A stretch of 64,000 bases of DNA from Belliella alkalica (GTDB lineage: Bacteria; Bacteroidota; Bacteroidia; Cytophagales; Cyclobacteriaceae), in NCBI RefSeq assembly GCF_022549785.1, contig NZ_JAKZGO010000011.1, forward strand, positions 1-64,000. The letters are read 5' to 3'. The notes beneath the pieces were generated by a model. The model did no database searches. It worked only from the letters and a program-made list of their open reading frames with translations, and was not told the origin of the DNA. Positions 6,861 to 62,076 of the stretch are shown piece by piece (position 1 is the stretch's first letter; each line of letters starts with the position of its first letter). The position numbers were made by a program, and so were the translations under genes.

Positions 6861-6870
6861 TCAAGATAGC

Positions 6871-7042
6871 CCTGAAAGGACTTATGATCCAAGCCTCAGG
6901 TTGTGACCCGATGTCTAAAAAGATTTCAGTTGAACGTTTGTCCTGAAAAGCCTGTCCCGCATCCTTATTGAGAGGCAATTGAATGGCTACCGGAAATAAA
7001 GAGAAATTAATAAAAAAGTGTCAAGTAATTTTAGGACGTGAC
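6871..7042 (+). repeat. Composite dispersed repeat, copy 2
   Basis: Reverse-complement twin of 2796-2968, differing at roughly ten positions. The CCTGAAAG end adjoins the satellite, as in the other copies. The GTGTCAAG...GGACGTGAC end abuts the 3' end of the DUF1801 gene. Confidence 0.9.
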
Positions 7043-7065
7043 ATGTTCTTTATGACCTTTTCTTT

Positions 7066-36183: not shown

Positions 36184-36209
36184 AGTTTTTATATTTTCAT
36201 TTTAATTAA

Positions 36210-36233
36210 ATATCCGCTTTCTTACCAGTTGCC
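36210..36233 (-). promoter_or_regulatory. ACTGGTAAGAAAGCGGATAT motif before the DUF4861 gene
   Basis: Minus-strand GGCAACTGGTAAGAAAGCGG and ATAT, ending 26 nt before the start codon. The same motif is found at 52741, 52903, 58893 and 61953 on the plus strand. Confidence 0.6.
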
Positions 36234-36315
36234 ATGCAAAATCATATAATTCACCCCCAACTGATACACTGATAACTTATTGACTGATAACTCTTGCCCG
36301 TGGCGTAAGTAACTA

Positions 36316-46305: not shown

Positions 46306-46509
46306 CAAGAACATGCCCTGAAAAGCCTGTCGCATCCTTATCGGGAGGCTTAAGATCTAAGCATAGGGTCATGACCCGATGTCTAAAAAGAATTCAATTA
46401 TATGTTTGCCCTGAAAGGCCTGTCCCGAGGATATCGGGAGGCAATTGAATGGCTAGCGGAAATAAAGAAAAATCAATAAAAAAAGTATCAACTAATTTCA
46501 GCATTTGAC
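46306..46509 (+). repeat. Composite dispersed repeat, copy 3 (diverged)
   Basis: It aligns with copy 2: GTCTAAAAAG, then CCTGTCCCGAGGATATCGGG, GGCAATTGAATGGCTA, CGGAAATAAAG and a TCAATAAAAAAAGT end. An extra CCTGTCGCATCCTTATCGGG hairpin unit lies at about 46324-46346. Confidence 0.8.
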
Positions 46510-46651
46510 AGGCATCAAGGAATCGGTTATTGAGAGATTAGAAGTAAGATTAAAACAAGACATAACTGAGATCACTTAGAAGCAAAAAGAACCGCAAGAC
46601 AAAGTAGAAAGAAGCTATAAACAAGATAAAAAGAGTTCAAAATCCGAAAAA

Positions 46652-52453: not shown

Positions 52454-52642
52454 ATGAAAAATCTACTCGTAGTATTATCAATTGTTGGATTGCTTTTCAC
52501 GATAATCCCACCATTTTTGGTCTTTTCGGCAGTCATTGAGCCAGCTACATCAAAAAACCTGATGTTGGCAGGAACCGTGATTTGGTTTACATCTGCGCCG
52601 TTTTGGCTAAATAAAAAATCAGAAAATGATTATCCGCAATGA
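52454..52642 (+). CDS. 62-aa two-TM membrane protein downstream of the permease
   Basis: This small protein has two hydrophobic segments (about residues 3-27 and 36-52) and a short charged tail (KKSENDYPQ). It begins 9 nt after the permease stop, so co-translation is likely. No family was recognised. It may assist the transporter as a small subunit. Its last codons (NDYPQ and stop) lie inside the GATTATCCGCA hairpin repeat, so the C-terminus may have been rewritten by repeat insertion. Confidence 0.6.
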   Translation: MKNLLVVLSIVGLLFTIIPPFLVFSAVIEPATSKNLMLAGTVIWFTSAPFWLNKKSENDYPQ

Positions 52643-52935
52643 CAATAGTTGGTAAATTTTCACTTGAAATCATGCGGATAATCGTTATTAGTCGATTTGT
52701 TATCAGCGCATTAATTGATTTAAAACACATCATTTTGTTTGGCTACTGGTAAGAAAGCGGATAGGGATAAAACAGAATATGATTATCCGCAATCATACCA
52801 CTCATCAATTAAGCGATTGTTTTTTGGCAAACTGATACTAATAGATATTGGATATTTATTGATATTGGTTAGAAATCACAGGTTAATTCAATTATTTAGA
52901 TTCTACTGGTATGAAAACGGATATACATAAAACAG
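52628..52935 (+). repeat. GATTATCCGCA hairpin repeat, two tandem copies
   Basis: Copy A1 (52628-52780): GATTATCCGCA and TGCGGATAATC (52673-52683) form an 11-bp stem, ending ACTGGTAAGAAAGCGGATA. Copy A2 (52781-52935): starts GATTATCCGCA, lacks the paired arm, and ends ACTGGTATGAAAACGGATAT. They fill the gap between the 62-aa gene and the esterase; no gene is seen. Confidence 0.85.
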
Positions 52936-52948
52936 AAAATACCGAAAT

Positions 52949-53836
52949 ATGAAACAAACCATCTTAATGATGGTCTTTTTTGCTGTCAGCACTTATGGAT
53001 TTTCCCAGAAAATTGAAAAAATCAACCTGTGGGAAAAAGAAGCTCCATACACCCTAAAAGCTATAGAGGAAGACCAATTTAATGAAAGGGGAAATGTAGA
53101 AACTGTCGCTATTCCAGACATTACGGTGTATTTTCCAACTTCTGGAGAAGGTAACGGCCGTGCTATCCTAATCTGTCCCGGCGGTGGATACAGAAATCTC
53201 GCAATCAATCATGAAGGCTATGACATTGCAAAATTTTATTCCGAAAAAGGTTATGTAGCAGCTGTATTGAAATACAGATTGCCAGAACCAAGCTTGGTCT
53301 CCGAACCATGGAATGTACCTTTGGCAGATGCCAAGCAAGCCATCAAATTGATAAGAAAGAATGCTGAAAAATGGAATATTGATTCTGAAAAAGTCGGAGT
53401 CTTGGGTTTTTCGGCTGGAGGACATTTAGCGTCTTCGCTTTCTGTACACGGTATTTTGGAAGAAGGAAGTCTTCCCAATTTTAGTATATTGATATACCCG
53501 GTGGTCAGTTTTGAGAAAGGCGTGACGCATGAAGGTTCTAGAACCAATTTGCTTCGAGAGCAATTGGAGACTGATTGGGAAACATTTTACTCCAACGAAA
53601 AACAAGTCAATTCAAATACACCTCCAGCTTTTCTTGTCCATAGTTGGGATGACAAAGCTGTACCGGCAGAGAATTCGATCCGATATGCAAAAGCACTTGC
53701 AGCAATTGGCACAAAAACCGAACTGCATCTTTTTGAAAAGGGTGGGCATGGCTATGGAAAAGGGAATTCCCTCACCCATGGCACTGCTTCCCAATGGATA
53801 GATATGAGCTTGATTTGGTTAGATCAATTATTCTAA
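52949..53836 (+). CDS. Secreted alpha/beta-hydrolase, probable acetyl esterase
   Basis: This is a 295-residue protein with a signal peptide (cleavage near YGFSQ). The alpha/beta-hydrolase core shows the oxyanion motif ILICPGGGYRNLA, the nucleophile elbow GFSAGGH (Ser about residue 155), VHSWDDKAVP with the acid Asp, and the catalytic His in EKGGHGYG. This is the xylan/pectin acetyl-esterase-like branch common in polysaccharide loci. In this setting removal of acetyl groups from RG-I galacturonate is the likely role (inference). It starts about 25 nt after the second ACTGGTA...GGATAT motif, and GH31 follows 244 nt downstream. Confidence 0.82.
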   Translation: MKQTILMMVFFAVSTYGFSQKIEKINLWEKEAPYTLKAIEEDQFNERGNVETVAIPDITVYFPTSGEGNGRAILICPGGGYRNLAINHEGYDIAKFYSEKGYVAAVLKYRLPEPSLVSEPWNVPLADAKQAIKLIRKNAEKWNIDSEKVGVLGFSAGGHLASSLSVHGILEEGSLPNFSILIYPVVSFEKGVTHEGSRTNLLREQLETDWETFYSNEKQVNSNTPPAFLVHSWDDKAVPAENSIRYAKALAAIGTKTELHLFEKGGHGYGKGNSLTHGTASQWIDMSLIWLDQLF

Positions 53837-54003
53837 AAATTGTGAACAGGAGAGTAAAGGATAGTCTCTTCATTCTTATTGGGTATTTTTGATTTGGATA
53901 GCTATTTTGAGCTACCGTAAGCTTACTTAAATTGGAGATCTTAGAGCATGTTTCTTTGATTATTCAGCATAAATAGATGCCGTTTCTTTGGGAAACTATA
54001 CCA

Positions 54004-54019
54004 AGTATTCCCCTGCACT
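54004..54019 (+). promoter_or_regulatory. Weak RhaR-type motif before GH31
   Basis: AGTATTCCCCTGCACT, the reverse complement of AGTGCAGGGGAATACT. It keeps the AGT...ACT symmetry but differs in the core; 61 nt before GH31. Confidence 0.3.
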
Positions 54020-54080
54020 AGATGCCTAGATATGCTTCTGCAAGTCTGCTAAAATTAACATTTAACCCAGAAACACTAAA

Positions 54081-56483
54081 ATGAAAAAATTCTCCTTTTT
54101 TGTTCTGATCGTGTTATGTTTTTCTCAAAACCTAGCAACTGCCCAGACCCAAAACATATTAACTTTTCAAACTTCCGAGACGAAGCTGGAAATTGCATTT
54201 TACAAGCCTGATTTATTTAGAGTCAAGGTCGGTGCGCAAATACCTGAAGAGGAGTTTTCTTACATGCTAGCGCATCAACAATGGCCTGCTATTGCTGTGA
54301 ATCAAGAAGAGAACGCAGATTCATACCTTATCACGACCCCTACACTGAAACTAGAAATTGACAAAAGCTCACTTGCAATCAAAGTTTTTAACGAAGCCGG
54401 AGATTTGATATCTTCAGAAGCGTCAAATGAATCTGGAGGGTATTACCAAAAAGAAATCAAATCAGGCATTTCAAAAAACATCCATTCGGATGAGCACTTT
54501 TTCGGATTTGGTGAAAGAATGGATTTTCTAGATCAAAAGGGAAAATCTTTGATCATGAATGTAGGCCGAGGATTGCTGAAACCACATATAATCGGTGCCT
54601 ACAATATCTTGGAAGCCAACTATGCTCCAGTGCCATTTATGATGAGTACCAAAGGCTATGGCATTTTCTATCACACAAGTCAGCCCAGTGAATTTGATTT
54701 GGGGAAAACGAACAAAGACAAATTGACTTTTCAAGCAGAAGGAACACACGTGGATTACTTCTTCATGTACGGACCTGATTTCACACATTTGATCAATCAC
54801 TACACAGACCTTACTGGCAAATCTCCTTTACTGCCAAGATTTGCCCACGGATTGCATGTGGGAACTTACAGTGGAGGTACTTGGGGACACGAACATCTGA
54901 CTTCAGGAGAATATGTAGTCGCCTTAGCTAAGAGATACAGACAAAAAGGTATTCCATTTGATGTACTTCATTTGGACTCTACTTGGAGGCTTTTTGGGAA
55001 AAATGGAGGAAGTGGCGCAACTTCTTTCGAATGGAGAGAGACATTTACCGATCCAAAGAGCATGTTTGACCAGCTATATGGAATGGATGTAAACATGGTA
55101 GGATTGCACGTCAGGCCAAGATTTGATAATGGAAATAACCTAAATCTCCTTGATCAAGCCAGAGAAGGAGGGCATGTGTACCCTGAAGAAAACAACAAAG
55201 GCGAATTTGTCAATTTCTTCGATGACAAAGCCGTCGATTGGTGGTGGGAAAATGGCGTGATGAAGATCGCAGAAATTGGTGCAATGTTTTTGAAGACGGA
55301 TGAAGGAAGTGCATTTGGAAGACAAGCGAATGAAAGTAGCAAAACAGGCCCTACCAGTGCGGAGGCGAAAAAATTACATAATGTGTTTCCAGTAGCTTAT
55401 GCAAAAGCACCTTATGAAAAATTCAAAGAGCACAACAAAATGCGTGGCATGAACCATACACGTGAAGGCTATGCCGGCATTCAACGATATCCATTTATCT
55501 GGGCTGGAGACTGGCCAAGTGAATGGCAATATTATGCTCCTGTAATCCGTGCTGGCATCAACATGGGGCTATCAGGAGTTGGATATTGGTCGCATAATAT
55601 GGGTGGATTCGAGCATGATGCCGATCCTGAGTTATTTGTGAGATGGGTACAGTTTGGCATGTTTAGTCCAGTGGCACATGTGTTTGGAATGGATCATCCT
55701 GGTTACAAAGAACCTTGGAACTATGGTTCGGAAGCCGAAAAGATCTTCACACAATATGCCAAACTTCGCTATAGACTTATTCCTTATATCTATACCACGG
55801 CATTTCAACAAAACCAAACCGGTGTTCCTATCATGCGCGCATTAGTCTTGCACCACCAAGAAGATTTGAACACATACAGTATTGACGATCAGTATTATTT
55901 TGGTGACCAAATGATAATCTGCCCCGTAATTACCAAAAGTGCCAAAACAAGGGTGGTCTATCTGCCGGAGGGTAAGTGGTTTAATTACTGGACAGGAAAA
56001 TCTTATGAAGGTTCGAGCTATTACAACATCGTAACTCCTCTTGAAACACTTCCGATTTTTGTAAAGGAAGGAGCAATAATTCCTTCGCAAGATGATGTTT
56101 TGTATGATAACAAGGAAAATTACGGTCGCTTGACCTTCGAAATTTTTCCTGGTGAAAAAGGTGATTTTGAGCTTTTCGAAGATGATGGGATTTCTGAAAA
56201 TTATGCTGATAATGATTATTCATTAACAAAAATAGAATCAGAATCTGTAAACAATACAACCCACATCACCATTCATAAATCAGAAGGAGACTACAAAGTC
56301 CCTAACCGTGAGATAGTTTTGAAAGTACATGTAAAAGAAGAGCCTCAAATCATTCAAGTCAATGAAAAAAGATTAGGAAAATCAGAAGACAAAAATGGAT
56401 GGAAATATGATAGTGCAAAAAATATAATTATGTTGCACATACAAAAACCTGCTAATCAAAAGATTACAATAAGCATAAATTAA
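54081..56483 (+). CDS. GH31 alpha-glycosidase
   Basis: This is an 800-residue secreted enzyme (signal ends NLATAQ). After an N-terminal beta domain come the GH31 landmarks FFGFGERMDFLDQKG, PFMMSTKGYGIFYH, GKSPLLPRFAHGLHVGTYSG and GIPFDVLHLDSTW. The nucleophile Asp is in FLKTDEGS (Asp 407) and the acid/base Asp in WAGDWPSEW (Asp 477). GYWSHNMGGFEHDADPELF and the C-terminal PIFVKEGAIIP beta domain follow. GH31 includes alpha-glucosidases, xylosidases and galactosidases; the KTDEGS form differs from the classical KTDFGE and the substrate is unclear. Within this locus an alpha-linked side-chain sugar of RG-I or of an attached polymer is likely. Confidence 0.92.
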   Translation: MKKFSFFVLIVLCFSQNLATAQTQNILTFQTSETKLEIAFYKPDLFRVKVGAQIPEEEFSYMLAHQQWPAIAVNQEENADSYLITTPTLKLEIDKSSLAIKVFNEAGDLISSEASNESGGYYQKEIKSGISKNIHSDEHFFGFGERMDFLDQKGKSLIMNVGRGLLKPHIIGAYNILEANYAPVPFMMSTKGYGIFYHTSQPSEFDLGKTNKDKLTFQAEGTHVDYFFMYGPDFTHLINHYTDLTGKSPLLPRFAHGLHVGTYSGGTWGHEHLTSGEYVVALAKRYRQKGIPFDVLHLDSTWRLFGKNGGSGATSFEWRETFTDPKSMFDQLYGMDVNMVGLHVRPRFDNGNNLNLLDQAREGGHVYPEENNKGEFVNFFDDKAVDWWWENGVMKIAEIGAMFLKTDEGSAFGRQANESSKTGPTSAEAKKLHNVFPVAYAKAPYEKFKEHNKMRGMNHTREGYAGIQRYPFIWAGDWPSEWQYYAPVIRAGINMGLSGVGYWSHNMGGFEHDADPELFVRWVQFGMFSPVAHVFGMDHPGYKEPWNYGSEAEKIFTQYAKLRYRLIPYIYTTAFQQNQTGVPIMRALVLHHQEDLNTYSIDDQYYFGDQMIICPVITKSAKTRVVYLPEGKWFNYWTGKSYEGSSYYNIVTPLETLPIFVKEGAIIPSQDDVLYDNKENYGRLTFEIFPGEKGDFELFEDDGISENYADNDYSLTKIESESVNNTTHITIHKSEGDYKVPNREIVLKVHVKEEPQIIQVNEKRLGKSEDKNGWKYDSAKNIIMLHIQKPANQKITISIN

Positions 56484-56498
56484 AGTACTAAAATTAAC

Positions 56499-56516
56499 AG
56501 TACAGAACAGGACAGT
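56499..56516 (+). promoter_or_regulatory. Putative RhaR-type double operator before the aldolase/dehydrogenase gene
   Basis: AGTACAGAACAGGACAGT, 52 nt before the start codon, containing an AGTACAG and an overlapping CAGGACAGT half as in the permease and GH43 sites. Confidence 0.5.
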
Positions 56517-56568
56517 AAATATTATTAAATAGGATAAATTTCCTTAAATAACTTAAACCTAGTTTACC

Positions 56569-58677
56569 ATGGCTATTTTGGAACAAAAATTCAATCATGT
56601 CTCTTACCTCTGGGACGAACAAAAAGCAAATTCTTTGGGCGATGACGAAGTTGCCCTTTTGATATACAGATCTAATATACTCGGTGCGGATCTACGAATC
56701 ACAAATTATGGAGGTGGAAATACGAGCTGTAAGACTTATGAAAAAGATCCCCTTTCAGGAAAAGAAGTAGAGGTGATGTGGGTAAAGGGCTCAGGTGGAG
56801 ATATTGGTACTTTGACCAAATCAGGACTAGCAGGCCTTTATGTTGACAAGCTGAGAGCTTTGGAAGGCATATACAAAGGAATAGAATTCGAAGATGAAAT
56901 GGTCGGTCTTTTTAACCATTGTATCTACGATCTAGACTCTAAAGCACCTTCGATCGATACACCACTGCATGCATTTTTGCCATTCAAACACATTGATCAC
57001 CTTCATCCAGATGCAGCCATTGCTATTGCAGCTTCCAAAGAAGGCGAGAAAATCACCCAAGAGCTTTTTGACGGTCAGATTGCTTGGATTCCTTGGCAAA
57101 GACCAGGCTTTGACTTAGGTCTTCAATTGAAGAAGGCTTTGGACGAAAACCCTGGAATCAGAGGAATCATGCTTGGAGGTCACGGACTTTTCACTTGGGG
57201 TGACACAGCTTATGAATGCTATATCAACAGCCTTGAAGTAATCGAAAAAGCTTCCCAATACCTTGAAGACAACTATGGTAAAAATAGACCTGTTTTCGGT
57301 GGTCAAAAAATCAAGTCGCTCGAGCCAAGCAAAAGAAAAGATCAGGCTGCCATCATTTCTCCTTTGTTGAGAGGACTTGCTTCTAGCTACGACAGAATGG
57401 TCGGTACTTTCAGTGACTCAGATACTGTTTTACAATTTATCAACTCCAATGATTTGGGAAAATTGGCACCTTTGGGTACTTCTTGCCCAGATCACTTTTT
57501 GAGAACCAAAATCGCCCCTCTTGTACTAGACATTCCTGCCGATCAAGACCTAAGCGACTTGGGTGCCATCAAAGAGCACATCAGCAAGTTGTTTGCTACA
57601 TATAGAGAAGGCTACAAAGACTACTACGAAAAGCACAAAAGATCCAACAGTCCAGCAATGCGTGATCCAAACCCAGTGATCATCTTGTGGCCGGGTGTTG
57701 GTTTGTTTTCCTATGCAAAAAACAAACAAACTTCAAGAGTAGCTTCTGAATTCTATATCAACGCAATCAACGTAATGCGAGGTGCTGAAGCAGTATCAGA
57801 ATATGTTTCTTTGCCATTGCAGGAAGCTTTTGATATCGAGTATTGGTTATTGGAAGAAGCAAAGCTTCAAAGAATGCCAAAAGAGCAGCCTTTGTCAAGG
57901 AAAGTAGCCTTGATCACAGGAAGTGCAGGAGGTATCGGAAAAGCAATCGCAGACAAGTTAGCCAAAGAAGGTGCTTGTGTGGTCTTGACAGATCTTGACG
58001 GTGACAGATTGGAAGAGGCGGTAAAGGATTTCGGAAAAGATACTGCTATCCAGACAAAATTGAATGTATTGGAAAATGACACGATAACTTCTGCCTTCAA
58101 AGCGGCAAACCTTGCCTTTGGTGGTGTGGATATTGTCGTGAACTGTGCAGGTCTTGCTATCAGCAAGCCTTTGACAGAAACTTCAGAAGCTGATTGGGAT
58201 TTACTGAATGATGTCCTTGTAAAAGGCCAATTCAAAGTGAGTCAAGAAGGTGTAAAAATACTAAGAGCACAAGGTCTTGGTGGAGATATCATCAATATTG
58301 CTTCTAAAAATGCCCTTGTATCTGGACCAAACAATGTAGGATACGGAACTGCAAAAGCAGCTCAAGTTCATATGTCAAGGTTGTTGGCTGCTGAATTGGG
58401 ACCTGACAAGATCCGTGTAAATGTGGTGAATCCTGATGCTGTAATCGAAGGTTCAAAAATCTGGGAAGGCAAATGGGCTGAAGGAAGAGCGAAAGCTTAT
58501 GGTATTTCTGTAGAAGAATTGCCTGCTCATTATGCAAAAAGAACATTATTGAATGAAATCATTAGCACAGAAGATATAGCAAATGGCGTTTTCGCTTTTG
58601 TAGGTGGAATTTTATCCAAAAGCACCGGAAATATCCTTAATGTAGATGGCGGAGTAGCTGCCGCATTCGTGAGATAA
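56569..58677 (+). CDS. rhaEW: Bifunctional L-rhamnulose-1-phosphate aldolase / L-lactaldehyde dehydrogenase
   Basis: This is a 702-residue cytoplasmic fusion. Residues about 1-430 form a class II aldolase domain (LGADLRITNYGGGNTSCK, VKGSGGDIGTLTKSGLAGLY, TPLHAFLPFKHIDHLHPDA with metal His, GGHGLFTWGDTAYECY) that splits rhamnulose 1-phosphate into DHAP and L-lactaldehyde. From about 445 there is a short-chain dehydrogenase (ALITGSAGGIGKAIA, NCAGLA, catalytic Tyr 592 and Lys 596 in VGYGTAKAA) that oxidises lactaldehyde to lactate. The fused form is known in Bacillus, Chloroflexus and Bacteroidota. It therefore spares separate aldolase and aldehyde dehydrogenase genes. Confidence 0.95.
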   Translation: MAILEQKFNHVSYLWDEQKANSLGDDEVALLIYRSNILGADLRITNYGGGNTSCKTYEKDPLSGKEVEVMWVKGSGGDIGTLTKSGLAGLYVDKLRALEGIYKGIEFEDEMVGLFNHCIYDLDSKAPSIDTPLHAFLPFKHIDHLHPDAAIAIAASKEGEKITQELFDGQIAWIPWQRPGFDLGLQLKKALDENPGIRGIMLGGHGLFTWGDTAYECYINSLEVIEKASQYLEDNYGKNRPVFGGQKIKSLEPSKRKDQAAIISPLLRGLASSYDRMVGTFSDSDTVLQFINSNDLGKLAPLGTSCPDHFLRTKIAPLVLDIPADQDLSDLGAIKEHISKLFATYREGYKDYYEKHKRSNSPAMRDPNPVIILWPGVGLFSYAKNKQTSRVASEFYINAINVMRGAEAVSEYVSLPLQEAFDIEYWLLEEAKLQRMPKEQPLSRKVALITGSAGGIGKAIADKLAKEGACVVLTDLDGDRLEEAVKDFGKDTAIQTKLNVLENDTITSAFKAANLAFGGVDIVVNCAGLAISKPLTETSEADWDLLNDVLVKGQFKVSQEGVKILRAQGLGGDIINIASKNALVSGPNNVGYGTAKAAQVHMSRLLAAELGPDKIRVNVVNPDAVIEGSKIWEGKWAEGRAKAYGISVEELPAHYAKRTLLNEIISTEDIANGVFAFVGGILSKSTGNILNVDGGVAAAFVR

Positions 58678-58744
58678 TTACCTCAAACCTATTTATACAT
58701 TAATTCCTTTCAGGTTTTTTCTAAATTAGACAATACTTTAGTCT

Positions 58745-58761
58745 AAACCTGGAAGGTTTTT
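58745..58761 (+). terminator. Small hairpin with U-tract after the aldolase/dehydrogenase gene
   Basis: AAACCT gga AGGTTT followed by TTTATTTATC, 68 nt past the stop. The stem is short (6 bp), so it may terminate only partly before rhaI. Confidence 0.5.
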
Positions 58762-58774
58762 ATTTATCTAATAT

Positions 58775-58925
58775 GATTATCTGCAATAACACCAGAAGGT
58801 GAATTTTCACATGAAATCATGCAGATAATCGTCGACGGTCGTCTGTCGACTGTCGACAGCATTGAATTCAAGGTATTTACCTAAATAAATTTGGATACTG
58901 GTATAATAGCGGATATATACAATCT
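58775..58925 (+). repeat. GATTATCTGCA hairpin repeat, copy B
   Basis: GATTATCTGCA (58775-58785) pairs exactly with TGCAGATAATC (58820-58830). The same element in copy A1 has a C-G pair where this one has T-A. It ends ACTGGTATAATAGCGGATAT at 58897-58916, upstream of rhaI. A GTCGAC-rich stretch lies at 58830-58858. Confidence 0.85.
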
Positions 58926-58939
58926 AATTATTCCCAAAA

Positions 58940-60217
58940 ATGAAAATCACACAAAGCCATATAGAAAATTCCAATGATGATTTGAAAAAGAATCACACGG
59001 AATCTTTTGATTTTTTATCCAATCAGCTTTCCAATAAAGGTGTAGATGTAAATTTGGTCGTTGAAAAAATCAAGGCATTGCAAATTGCTATACCATCATG
59101 GGCACTTGGTGCTGGAGGGACTAGATTTGGACGTTTTTCAGGCGCAGGCGAGCCAGCTGATTTGATTCAGAAGATTCAGGACATCGGAATCATCCACGCA
59201 CTCAATAAATCAAGCAACGCCGTATCACTTCACATCCCCTGGGACATTCCCCAAGATTATGAAGCTATCAGGCAGATCGCAAAGGATCTCAATATCAATT
59301 TTGACGCAGTCAATTCCAATACTTTTCAAGACCAACCTGGACAAAAAGTATCCTACAAATATGGTTCTTTGGCTAATTCAGACAAAGCTGTAAGGGAACT
59401 GGCAGTAGAGCACAACAAAGAAGTCATCAAAATCGGTGAAAGATTGGGTTCAAAAGCATTGACTGTCTGGCTTGCAGATGGATCAAGTTTTCCTGGACAA
59501 CATAGTATCAGAAAAGCTTTGGCAAATACACATGATTCACTAAGCTCCATATACGAGTACCTTCCTTCAGATTGGAAAATATTGGTGGAATACAAGCCTT
59601 ACGAGCCAAATTTCTACAGCACAGTAATCCAAGATTGGGGTACCTCCTTTTTGTTGGCTAATAAGCTTGGACCAAAAGCATATACTTTGGTGGATCTTGG
59701 TCACCATTTGCCAAATACAAATATTGAACAGATTGTAGCTACATTGATGACAGAGGAAAAATTGGGTGGATTCCATTTCAATGATTCCAAATATGGTGAT
59801 GATGACCTTACTGTAGGAAGTGTCAAACCATATCAGCTGTTCCTGATTTTCCATGAATTGGTACAAGGTTTTGCAGAAACAAATAATCCATCACTTTCAT
59901 GGATGATCGATGCAAGTCACAATGTAAAAGATCCTTTGGAAGATCTCTTGCAGTCTGTGGAAGCCATCAAGCTAGCGTATGCCCAAGCATTGATCATCAA
60001 TCAAAAAGCCTTGGAAGATGCACAACAAAATCATGATACCGCCAAAGCACAAGAAATCTTGCAGGATGCCTACAGAACAGACGTGAGGGCATTGGTGTCA
60101 GAAGCAAGCAGACAGTTGGGAGGGGCGATCTCTCCAATAAAAGCATACCGAAAAGTTGATGTGAGAAATGAACTGATCAAGGAGAGAGGAACTGATAGTA
60201 AAGCCAGCGGATTGTAA
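58940..60217 (+). CDS. rhaI: L-rhamnose isomerase (RhaI type)
   Basis: This is a 425-residue cytoplasmic isomerase of the RhaI group (Pseudomonas stutzeri/Bacillus type, not E. coli RhaA), converting L-rhamnose to L-rhamnulose with divalent metal. Family stretches are IAIPSWALGAGGTRFGRF, SLHIPWDIPQDYEAIRQIA, LTVWLADGSSFPGQ, ILVEYKPYEPNFYSTVIQDWG (Glu metal ligand region), TLVDLGHHLPNTNIEQIVA, GGFHFNDSKYGDDDLTVGS (His and Asp ligands) and WMIDASHNVKDPLEDLLQS. It starts about 24 nt after the GCGGATAT motif of repeat copy B. Length agrees with the family. Confidence 0.95.
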   Translation: MKITQSHIENSNDDLKKNHTESFDFLSNQLSNKGVDVNLVVEKIKALQIAIPSWALGAGGTRFGRFSGAGEPADLIQKIQDIGIIHALNKSSNAVSLHIPWDIPQDYEAIRQIAKDLNINFDAVNSNTFQDQPGQKVSYKYGSLANSDKAVRELAVEHNKEVIKIGERLGSKALTVWLADGSSFPGQHSIRKALANTHDSLSSIYEYLPSDWKILVEYKPYEPNFYSTVIQDWGTSFLLANKLGPKAYTLVDLGHHLPNTNIEQIVATLMTEEKLGGFHFNDSKYGDDDLTVGSVKPYQLFLIFHELVQGFAETNNPSLSWMIDASHNVKDPLEDLLQSVEAIKLAYAQALIINQKALEDAQQNHDTAKAQEILQDAYRTDVRALVSEASRQLGGAISPIKAYRKVDVRNELIKERGTDSKASGL

Positions 60218-60284
60218 GAGCTTGTTTAAACTTTATCCTTTGGCCTGCAATTGCGCCTCTTCCGCCCACTCTTCGGCTATTTTC

Positions 60285-60310
60285 GGGGATGTAGCGGTGG
60301 CTACGACCCC
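60285..60310 (+). other. GC-rich hairpin in the rhaI-rhaB spacer
   Basis: GGGGATGTAGC and GCTACGACCCC pair (9 of 11) around a 4-nt loop. The surrounding 60240-60330 block is richer in GC than its neighbours. No U-tract follows. Confidence 0.5.
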
Positions 60311-60390
60311 TAAAACGAGCCTCGATTGAACGAAAGATGCATCAATTTCATCCGTTTATTGTTGTTTTCATCTGATGGATGGAATCTTTG

Positions 60391-60440
60391 ATGATTTAAA
60401 TAATCATTACCCTTCGAGTTTTAATGATTATTTAAATCAT
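60391..60440 (+). promoter_or_regulatory. 19-bp perfect inverted repeat ahead of rhaB
   Basis: ATGATTTAAATAATCATTA (60391-60409) and TAATGATTATTTAAATCAT (60422-60440) are exact reverse complements with a 12-nt loop. Each arm is itself nearly palindromic. The right arm ends 40 nt before the preferred rhaB start. Confidence 0.75.
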
Positions 60441-60480
60441 GTCGATTTCGGCTTCAAAAACAAAATTTAATCAAGCTCTA

Positions 60481-61812
60481 ATGATACCTGTTACTGCCAT
60501 ATTTGATATAGGAAAAACCAATAAGAAGTTCTTTCTTTTTGATGTGAATTTCAAGGAAGTCTATAAAGTCTATCATCGCTTGGAATATATTCAAGACGAA
60601 GATGGAGATCCTTGTGAATCCATCAAGGAATTGACAAATTGGATCAAAGATACCCTTACCCAAGCACTTGCTTTGGAGGAATTCAACATCAGAAAACTCA
60701 ATTTTACAACCTATGGAGCATCCCTTGTCCATTTGGATAGAGAAGGTGACCCGATCACACCGTTGTATAATTATACCAAAGAATACCCAAAGGATCTTTT
60801 AGAGGATTTCTATAACAAATATGGCCCACAGGAAAATTTCTGCCAGGAAACTTCCTCTCCTGCCTTGGGTATGGTCAATTCGGGTCTGCAGTTATATTGG
60901 CTCAAATACCGCAAACCTGAATTATTCAAAAAAATCCACAATACCCTTCACCTTCCCCAGTACCTGAGCTATATGTTTACAGGGAAAATGGTCTCAGATT
61001 ACACAAGTATCGGTTGTCACACTGGTCTATGGGATTTCAAAAACAATAGCTATCATCAATGGCTGGAAAATGAAGATCTATTGAAGTTTTTGCCAAGAGC
61101 AGTGGATTCGGCTGAGACTTTTCCCATTTCATTCCGCAAGCAGTCGATGTCGGTAGGCGTGGGTGTACATGATTCCTCTTCTGCACTATTACCTTACCTT
61201 ATCAACAATACAGAACCTTTTGCCCTCTTATCCACTGGGACTTGGGCCATTAGTATCAATCCTTTCAACAACGAAGAACTGACTTTGGATGAATTGGAAA
61301 AAGACTGCCTTCATTTCATTGGTATTCATGGTCAGCCTATCAAGATTAGCCGACTTTTTATTGGTGAAGAACACAAACACCAAATCGAGAAGCTTTACGA
61401 ATATTTCAAGCTAGAAAAAGGATATTACAAGGCTTTGAAATTTGATCCTATCCATTACGAAAAAACAAAGGCCTGTAAAACCAAGAAATTCCGCTTCGAA
61501 TATCTGAAACCGGAAGTTTGTGGGATATCCCAAGCCGAGAAAAATGATTTTTCCCAGTTTGATACATTTGAAGAAGCATATTATTGTTTCTTGGATGAGC
61601 TTACAGAATTGCAAGTGGCCTCACTTCAGTTAGTCTTAGCTGATACTTCAGTAAAGCGATTGTATATAGATGGTGGATTCAATGCCAACGAGATGTTTGT
61701 AGAAATGCTCCGCCAAAAACTCCAAACCATCAGTGTGGAAACGACAGATTTTGCCTTGGGAACAGCTTTGGGAGCTGCTATTTTAGTGAATAAAGTTGCT
61801 GTGGATGGGTAA
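60481..61812 (+). CDS. rhaB: L-rhamnulokinase, FGGY family
   Basis: This is a 443-residue FGGY sugar kinase that phosphorylates L-rhamnulose. Features are the phosphate-1-like TAIFDIGKTNKKFFLFD at the N-terminus, the ATP-site segment ALLSTGTWAISINPF, and RLYIDGGFNANEMFVEMLRQ near the end, with TTDFALGTALGAAILVNK. I prefer the Met at 60481 because the fold begins immediately; a Met 14 codons earlier (60439) is open but overlaps the arm of an inverted repeat. Other FGGY substrates such as fuculose or xylulose cannot be excluded from sequence alone, but rhaM, rhaI and the aldolase fusion alongside make rhamnulose nearly certain. Confidence 0.88.
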   Translation: MIPVTAIFDIGKTNKKFFLFDVNFKEVYKVYHRLEYIQDEDGDPCESIKELTNWIKDTLTQALALEEFNIRKLNFTTYGASLVHLDREGDPITPLYNYTKEYPKDLLEDFYNKYGPQENFCQETSSPALGMVNSGLQLYWLKYRKPELFKKIHNTLHLPQYLSYMFTGKMVSDYTSIGCHTGLWDFKNNSYHQWLENEDLLKFLPRAVDSAETFPISFRKQSMSVGVGVHDSSSALLPYLINNTEPFALLSTGTWAISINPFNNEELTLDELEKDCLHFIGIHGQPIKISRLFIGEEHKHQIEKLYEYFKLEKGYYKALKFDPIHYEKTKACKTKKFRFEYLKPEVCGISQAEKNDFSQFDTFEEAYYCFLDELTELQVASLQLVLADTSVKRLYIDGGFNANEMFVEMLRQKLQTISVETTDFALGTALGAAILVNKVAVDG

Positions 61813-62076
61813 TGGTGATCTTTTTTACTATGCAGTTTGATTATGCGCAATGACACCATTTGTTAGGTAGACATATCACTTAAAGTTTTTCTGATAATCG
61901 ATGGCCATCCGACCACAGTGGCTTGAAATGAAGTACATATATTTTTGTAAATGGCTACAGGTACGTAAGCGGATATACAAACTATACAAATATCAGTATG
62001 TTGATATTTTATTTCTTTGTAAAAGGGTGTTCCAGTGCGAAAGTCATGAAAAACTTTACCATCGCTAGGCTAAAAG
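61813..62076. repeat. Spacer with hairpin repeat copy C
   Basis: GATTATGCGCA at 61839-61849 begins the element, CTGATAATCG (61891-61900) is a decayed second arm, and CTACAGGTACGTAAGCGGAT (61956-61975) is the end motif. No TACAGGA-type motif and no intact gene are seen. Confidence 0.7.

Follow-up and report, generated by a model that had tools for sequence, protein, structure and literature searches.

Four repeats, A1, A2, B and C, lie in a 64,000-nucleotide stretch of the Belliella alkalica genome (contig NZ_JAKZGO010000011.1, positions 1 to 64,000; hereafter the window) and almost certainly belong to a family of ~150-bp miniature inverted-repeat transposable elements (MITEs). Judging from the DNA sequence, these elements would move with the help of a DDE transposase, of the IS1595 family, that is supplied in trans. 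An earlier note on this DNA had drawn attention to a hairpin in these repeats in which one base pair had changed in both arms together, and had read the change as selection on a folded RNA or on a DNA hairpin needed for spread. The letters and coordinates of all four copies agreed with that description. The A1 hairpin (52628-52683) pairs GATTATCCGCA with TGCGGATAATC and the B hairpin (58775-58830) pairs GATTATCTGCA with TGCAGATAATC, each over 11 bp and with a T-A pair in B replacing C-G; the hairpin of C (61839-61900) is decayed, and A2 (52781) is single-armed, lacking the inner arm. Predicted fold energies were -17.5 kcal/mol for A1 and -17.6 kcal/mol for B, which none of 300 dinucleotide shuffles equalled in either case (z -4.2 and -4.7, respectively); 165 of 300 shuffles folded as low as C and 182 of 300 as low as A2.

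Setting 30 genomic copies side by side placed the hairpin in the left third of a unit that runs TATGATTATCCGC...GCGGATATNCATA; in 22 of the copies the right end could be recognised, and these have lengths of 142-171 bp. The two ends of this unit are imperfect inverted repeats over ~26 bp, and the common 'end motif' that had been reported after each hairpin is real, being the right terminal inverted repeat (...GCGGATA(T)). The hairpin exists because the left terminus, GATTATCCGC, recurs in inverted orientation ~45 bp inside the element. Short, present in many copies, bounded by terminal inverted repeats and devoid of a transposase gene, the unit has the features by which a MITE is recognised. 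Some subfamilies carry an extra insert of ~18 bp in mid-element, containing ACGCCACGGCGCAC or its reverse complement.

Target duplications were analysed in 149 copies (70 from the B. alkalica genome itself, G000, and 79 from relatives), with copies related by ancestry all counted. The flanking 8-mers agreed in at least seven of eight positions in 71 of these, whereas six control offsets gave 0-2 and shuffling of the mates gave 2.3; for the own copies alone the figure was 25 of 70 (controls 0-2). Good ends, defined as no more than two mismatches in both ends together, were present in 92 copies, of which 61 agreed at this level and 46 exactly, with exact repeats of 5, 6 and 7 bases numbering one, one and none and each length from 9 to 12 bases giving none. 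The target 8-mers were 89% A+T by comparison with 70% in nearby flanks. Duplication of 8 bp is the signature expected of a DDE transposase that cuts its target with a stagger of 8. When the A locus is aligned with the congener G001, roughly the whole of A1 and A2 is skipped, and the alignments of the two flanks overlap by 8 bases. The B insertion is present in G002 but missing in G005 and G006; G001 has at this site an element (L242) whose left end agrees with that of window 58772-58921 and whose interior is of another subfamily, so that interiors seem to be exchanged between copies by conversion or recombination, unless the site was hit twice. C was not seen in the 330 bases after the kinase gene in G001, G002, G005 and G006, where the intergenic DNA is too diverged for a clean empty site. 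Spread as a mobile repeat, which the earlier note had touched on, was borne out by the terminal inverted repeats, the 8-bp duplications, the empty sites and at least 148 genomic matches.

These matches were obtained at E <=0.001 in G000 (150 candidates scored) with a sequence-only model, R1, built from 19 of the 22 cut copies out of the 30 aligned; not covered by them are 26 pattern matches to the left end and 29 to the right end, many belonging to subfamily 2. In the same genome, a 17-base left-arm pattern hit 107 times when two mismatches at most were tolerated, and the reversed pattern twice. R1 matched in ten of 59 genomes, G000 counted, including all seven congeners. With 52 candidates scored per congener genome, the matches numbered at least 52 in both G001 and G002, 44 in G003, 34 in G004, one each in G005 and G006, and 51 in G007; outside the genus only G027 (6) and G028 (5) had any. 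The 46 stretches with an exact match to a 22-base pattern came from Belliella calami, aquatica, buryatensis and pelovolcani, from a number of assemblies assigned to Algoriphagus or Cyclobacteriaceae, and from a small remainder. Sets of identical copies within G000 (L031, L032 and L033; L034 and L035) suggest recent movement.

Long-range pairs of ends in 20 stretches of the own genome included none with a matching duplication, and the partner element came from a congener. This is an insertion sequence (IS) of 1042 bp in G001 (L086:451-1492) that has the same terminal inverted repeats as the MITE and TTAAATTA on either side. Its transposase is frameshifted and matches PF12762 (DDE_Tnp_IS1595; E 9.7e-23, 81.3 bits, cut-off 27), the zinc ribbon PF12760 (E 2.9e-6, 27.6 bits, cut-off 25.4) and the NCBIfam model NF033547, transpos_IS1595 (E 6e-40, 137.4 bits, cut-off 75). 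Other copies of the IS, 1037-1042 bp in length and with 8/8 duplications, occur in G003, G006, G007 and G027, and G001 has another such copy elsewhere; G002 harbours an open transposase frame of 308 codons in an element whose flanking 8-mers agree in just six of eight positions. Relatives of the transposase were found in 15 of the 59 genomes, G000 counted; G005, with its one MITE match, had neither such a relative nor a PF12762 match. According to one account of the IS1595 family (PMC8101967), its members usually generate 8-bp duplications and encode an IS1595 DDE domain and, except in IS1016, a zinc finger. The partner shares the PF12760 and PF12762 domains and the 8-bp duplications with these ISs and is, by these predicted features, a member of the family; unlike them, the window elements have no transposase, and the partner, whose ends read TATG..., was placed by its transposase domains rather than in an ISfinder group.

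In the mechanism that we propose, an IS1595-family DDE transposase would recognise the imperfect terminal repeats TATGATTATCCGCAATNACACCAGT... and TATGTATATCCGCTTTCATACCAGTAGCC..., and the MITE would insert into AT-rich intergenic DNA, duplicating 8 bp; the enzyme would be supplied by the ~1040-bp IS with matching ends, open in sister species. Mobilisation in trans would then have been accompanied by loss of the partner from the own genome. Several observations weigh against this scheme. Exact duplications are missing in half of the good-ended copies, and among the window copies only A2 has one on both sides; G000 holds just a 52-codon fragment of the transposase with four stops, and no PF12762 match was obtained in its assembly of 105 contigs; and the likeness between MITE and IS is limited to ~26-30 bp at the ends.

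Abundant intergenic elements of 100-155 bp that are able to fold are also represented by the Correia, RUP and ERIC-type repeats, which differ from the Belliella MITE in termini, duplication and partner. Another parallel is MITEPye1 of Paracoccus yeei (PMC11578231), which is small and mostly intergenic, with terminal inverted repeats matching an IS, direct repeats and a predicted stem-loop RNA; it differs in having 1-3 chromosomal copies and an IS1182-type partner, where the Belliella element has 148 matches or more and a partner of IS1595 type. In the open-licence literature searched we found no description of this element, which appears to represent a new MITE family of the IS1595 type.

A rival reading makes the hairpin a structured RNA, or a processing or terminator hairpin, kept by selection for base pairing. 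The folding of A1 and B far below their shuffles and the conservation of the inner arm between subfamilies are in keeping with this, although no Rfam match was found in the window at the gathering threshold. Covariation was analysed in 134 sense copies taken best first (55 of 86 from the own genome and 79 of 107 from relatives), from which three without recognisable arms and four identical sequences were dropped to leave 127. Their 81 distinct arm pairs were paired in 736 of 891 cells, compared with 735.2 after arms had been shuffled between copies; pair-keeping double changes numbered 9 versus 7.6 by shuffling (34.6% of 2000 shuffles reached 9); and of 188 one-sided changes 147 broke the pair and 41 kept a G-U. 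The arms therefore vary independently, and the selection on a paired fold that the covariation had been taken to demonstrate did not hold up. In the consensuses of seven subfamilies with three or more members the left arm was always GATTATCCGCA, and the inner arm was AGCGGATAATC, TGCGAATAATC, TGCGGATAATT, TGCGGATAAAT or TGCGGATAATC, its changes being without partners. A C-A mismatch at pair 7 was carried by 25 of the 127 copies, and one subfamily, of 17 members, has it in its consensus. The T-A pair of B recurred among the 127 sequences just in the orthologue from G002. The G001 element at the B site has the same left end as B, including the T; its inner arm, with the interior of another subfamily, keeps the G, so that the T did not require the A. 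The replacement of C-G by T-A in B arose in a single insertion lineage, by chance or in copying, and, real as it is in its letters, is no evidence for a selected fold in the sequences compared.

Some results point the other way. When the 127 sequences were left uncollapsed, double changes numbered 19 versus 11.4 expected (p 0.011) and pair-keeping double changes 11 versus 7.2 (p 0.09), an excess that can be explained by shared ancestry, with a weak constraint on pairing as another possible contribution. Over ten orthologue pairs the arms had changed a little less than the remainder of the element (20/220 versus 172/1294 differences; p 0.10). This is opposite in direction to the seven close G000/G002 pairs among them, in which the arms were not less diverged (14/154 versus 58/913; Fisher p 0.22); two of the three distant pairs that stand outside this seven-pair total (one from G003 and two from G001) probably set the interior of one subfamily against that of another, with 48-57 differences in 122-129 positions. 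Divergence after insertion thus points clearly in neither direction.

The genomic context was likewise examined, using open reading frames (ORFs) of at least 90 amino acids from a simple ORF caller rather than a gene finder. None of 69 own copies with flanks lay inside such an ORF; the gaps that hold them are tandem for 39 copies, convergent for 15 and divergent for 11, and four copies were near a locus edge, with the other gaps in the same loci comprising 23 tandem, four convergent and two divergent. Tandem-gap copies were sense in 23 cases and antisense in 16 (p 0.34); the lack of a significant strand bias, together with the occupied divergent and convergent gaps, speaks against the RNA reading. 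Copies do stand by rhamnose genes as the earlier note had described, but a special link to these genes or to the direction of transcription was not upheld, with copies on both strands and in all three kinds of gap; independently varying arms and copies scattered without relation to operons are, as far as the sequence shows, what that note had itself named as counting against its reading. Of the rhamnose-related products, a RhaD-type bifunctional protein scored above cut-off, and isomerase, kinase and rhamnosidase matches scored below; these genes are mere neighbours of the MITE copies. Taken over all of this evidence, an RNA kept by base-pairing selection is very improbable.

The other half of the earlier reading, a DNA hairpin needed for spread, could correspond to the single-stranded hairpins used in transposition by IS200/IS605 elements or by repetitive extragenic palindromes (REP) with their RAYT transposases. 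The hairpin does lie in an abundant intergenic repeat, and the genome has five matches to the Y1 transposase domain (PF01797). According to one study (PMC2817692), REPs are likewise abundant intergenic palindromes, but their head reads GT(A/G)G and the transposase that goes with them is of Y1 type, akin to that of IS200/IS605, and known IS200/IS605 members lack terminal inverted repeats or larger duplications. The 8-bp duplications and inverted termini of the Belliella element are DDE features, its partner is a DDE element, and the target duplications largely refute a single-strand mechanism; further, three of the five Y1 loci were examined and had no GATTATCCGC within one mismatch, and subfamily 2 has spread without a hairpin. 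This possibility is close to negligible, and the REP/RAYT assignment was rejected on the duplications and on the lack of a flanking repeat at the three Y1 loci.

If the element is a MITE, its inner arm still calls for an explanation. Over 37 cluster representatives, identity was 0.85 in the inner arm and 0.84 and 0.81 in the termini, and fell to 0.68 for the loop and 0.65 for the middle, a measure that is somewhat biased, as copies were picked by model score and by arm match, the arm included. The motif rather than its pairing looks to be what is constrained within mobile lineages. Against this stands the spread of subfamily 2, to which A2 belongs, without an inner arm; the arm is therefore not essential and is helpful at most. 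As a variant that concerns the hairpin only, the arm may be a relic of the origin of the MITE by nested or aberrant end joining, retained by descent. The subfamilies look like mosaics of common left and right halves, the G001 element at the B site combines the common left end with a different interior, and the absence of the arm from subfamily 2 fits as well, whereas conservation of the arm to the level of the termini, and not of the loop and middle, does not, subject to the same choice of copies. We regard such an origin as a real possibility, if short of an even one. Within the MITE interpretation, the inner copy of the terminus is most likely a further site on the DNA at which the transposase or a host protein would act, rather than an RNA structure.

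Elements of this family are also found stacked end to end. A facing-end pattern with a variable gap occurred at 11 places in four of the eight genomes of the genus, and in nine of the 11 the spacer was exactly 8 bp; with mismatches allowed, there were 23 places with an 8-bp spacer in five genomes. Loci were at hand for 15 of these 23, of which L306 and L308 could not be located (locus centre off), leaving 13 readable junctions; the spacer agreed with an outer flank in 7-8 of eight positions in 11 of the 13, versus eight of 154 cross-comparisons between junctions. A1 and A2 form the stack in the window (AATCAGAA, AAACAGAA, AAACAGAA). Three elements in alternating orientation are stacked on G000:C17, and in L086 the IS adjoins a MITE, so that simple tandem duplication is not the cause. 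From these arrangements, the elements seem to insert repeatedly into one 8-bp target beside an existing end. It is conceivable, though rather unlikely in its full form, that the IS1595-type transposase of this group directs insertion, in exact register and in either orientation, to the 8 bp next to the end of an element already in place (giving duplication-element-duplication-element-duplication), and that the inverted inner terminus is a third transposase site that aids self-targeting or compensates for short ends.

Coordinates of the MITE copies and their target duplications in the window
Feature	Position	Strand	Remarks
Further copy, right-half remnant (model positions 61-149)	36207..36297	-	
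A1 left target duplication AATCAGAA	52617..52624	.	7/8 identical to spacer 52770-52777
MITE copy A1, complete	52625..52769	+	model R1 89.5 bits; missing from G001
A1/A2 common 8-bp spacer AAACAGAA (target duplication)	52770..52777	.	
MITE copy A2, subfamily 2, complete, without inner arm	52778..52929	+	
A2 right target duplication AAACAGAA	52930..52937	.	8/8 identical to spacer
B left target duplication TTATCTAA	58764..58771	.	
MITE copy B	58772..58921	+	model R1 105.3 bits
B right target duplication, probable remnant (ATCTAA)	58922..58927	.	
C probable left target duplication CTATGCAG	61828..61835	.	6/8 versus 61982-61989
MITE copy C, diverged	61836..61981	+	model R1 70.9 bits

The duplication of B scored just 2/8 in the register-based test, a small indel having shifted the right end. 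A1 also contributes to coding sequence: a small membrane-protein-like ORF (52454-52642) follows a permease-like ORF and obtains its C-terminus, NDYPQ, and its stop codon from the MITE, and this ORF has other endings in G001, G005 and G006. Two further features were seen in the window. A separate insertion of ~220 bp (60218-60438), with ends GAGCTTG.../...CAAGCTC, separates the stop codon of the isomerase gene from the start of the kinase gene and lengthens the called kinase ORF N-terminally; it is missing in G002, G005 and G006, a related sequence is present in G001, and the own genome contains two matches to the left end of this insertion. Another dispersed repeat family of ~150-200 bp occurs at 2794-2974, 6865-7043 and 46311-46511 in both orientations, with pieces 82-92% alike, and contains TGTCACGTCC...TTGACACTTTTTT and CCTGTCCCG motifs.

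To our knowledge, little experimental work has been done on the IS1595 family. The present analysis would explain an abundant repeat of Belliella and some of its relatives and tie it to a specific kind of IS; it also illustrates that an eye-catching paired change is, alone, no evidence for a selected RNA. Exact stacking on one common 8-bp target may be a property of this IS family, and one that can be tested.

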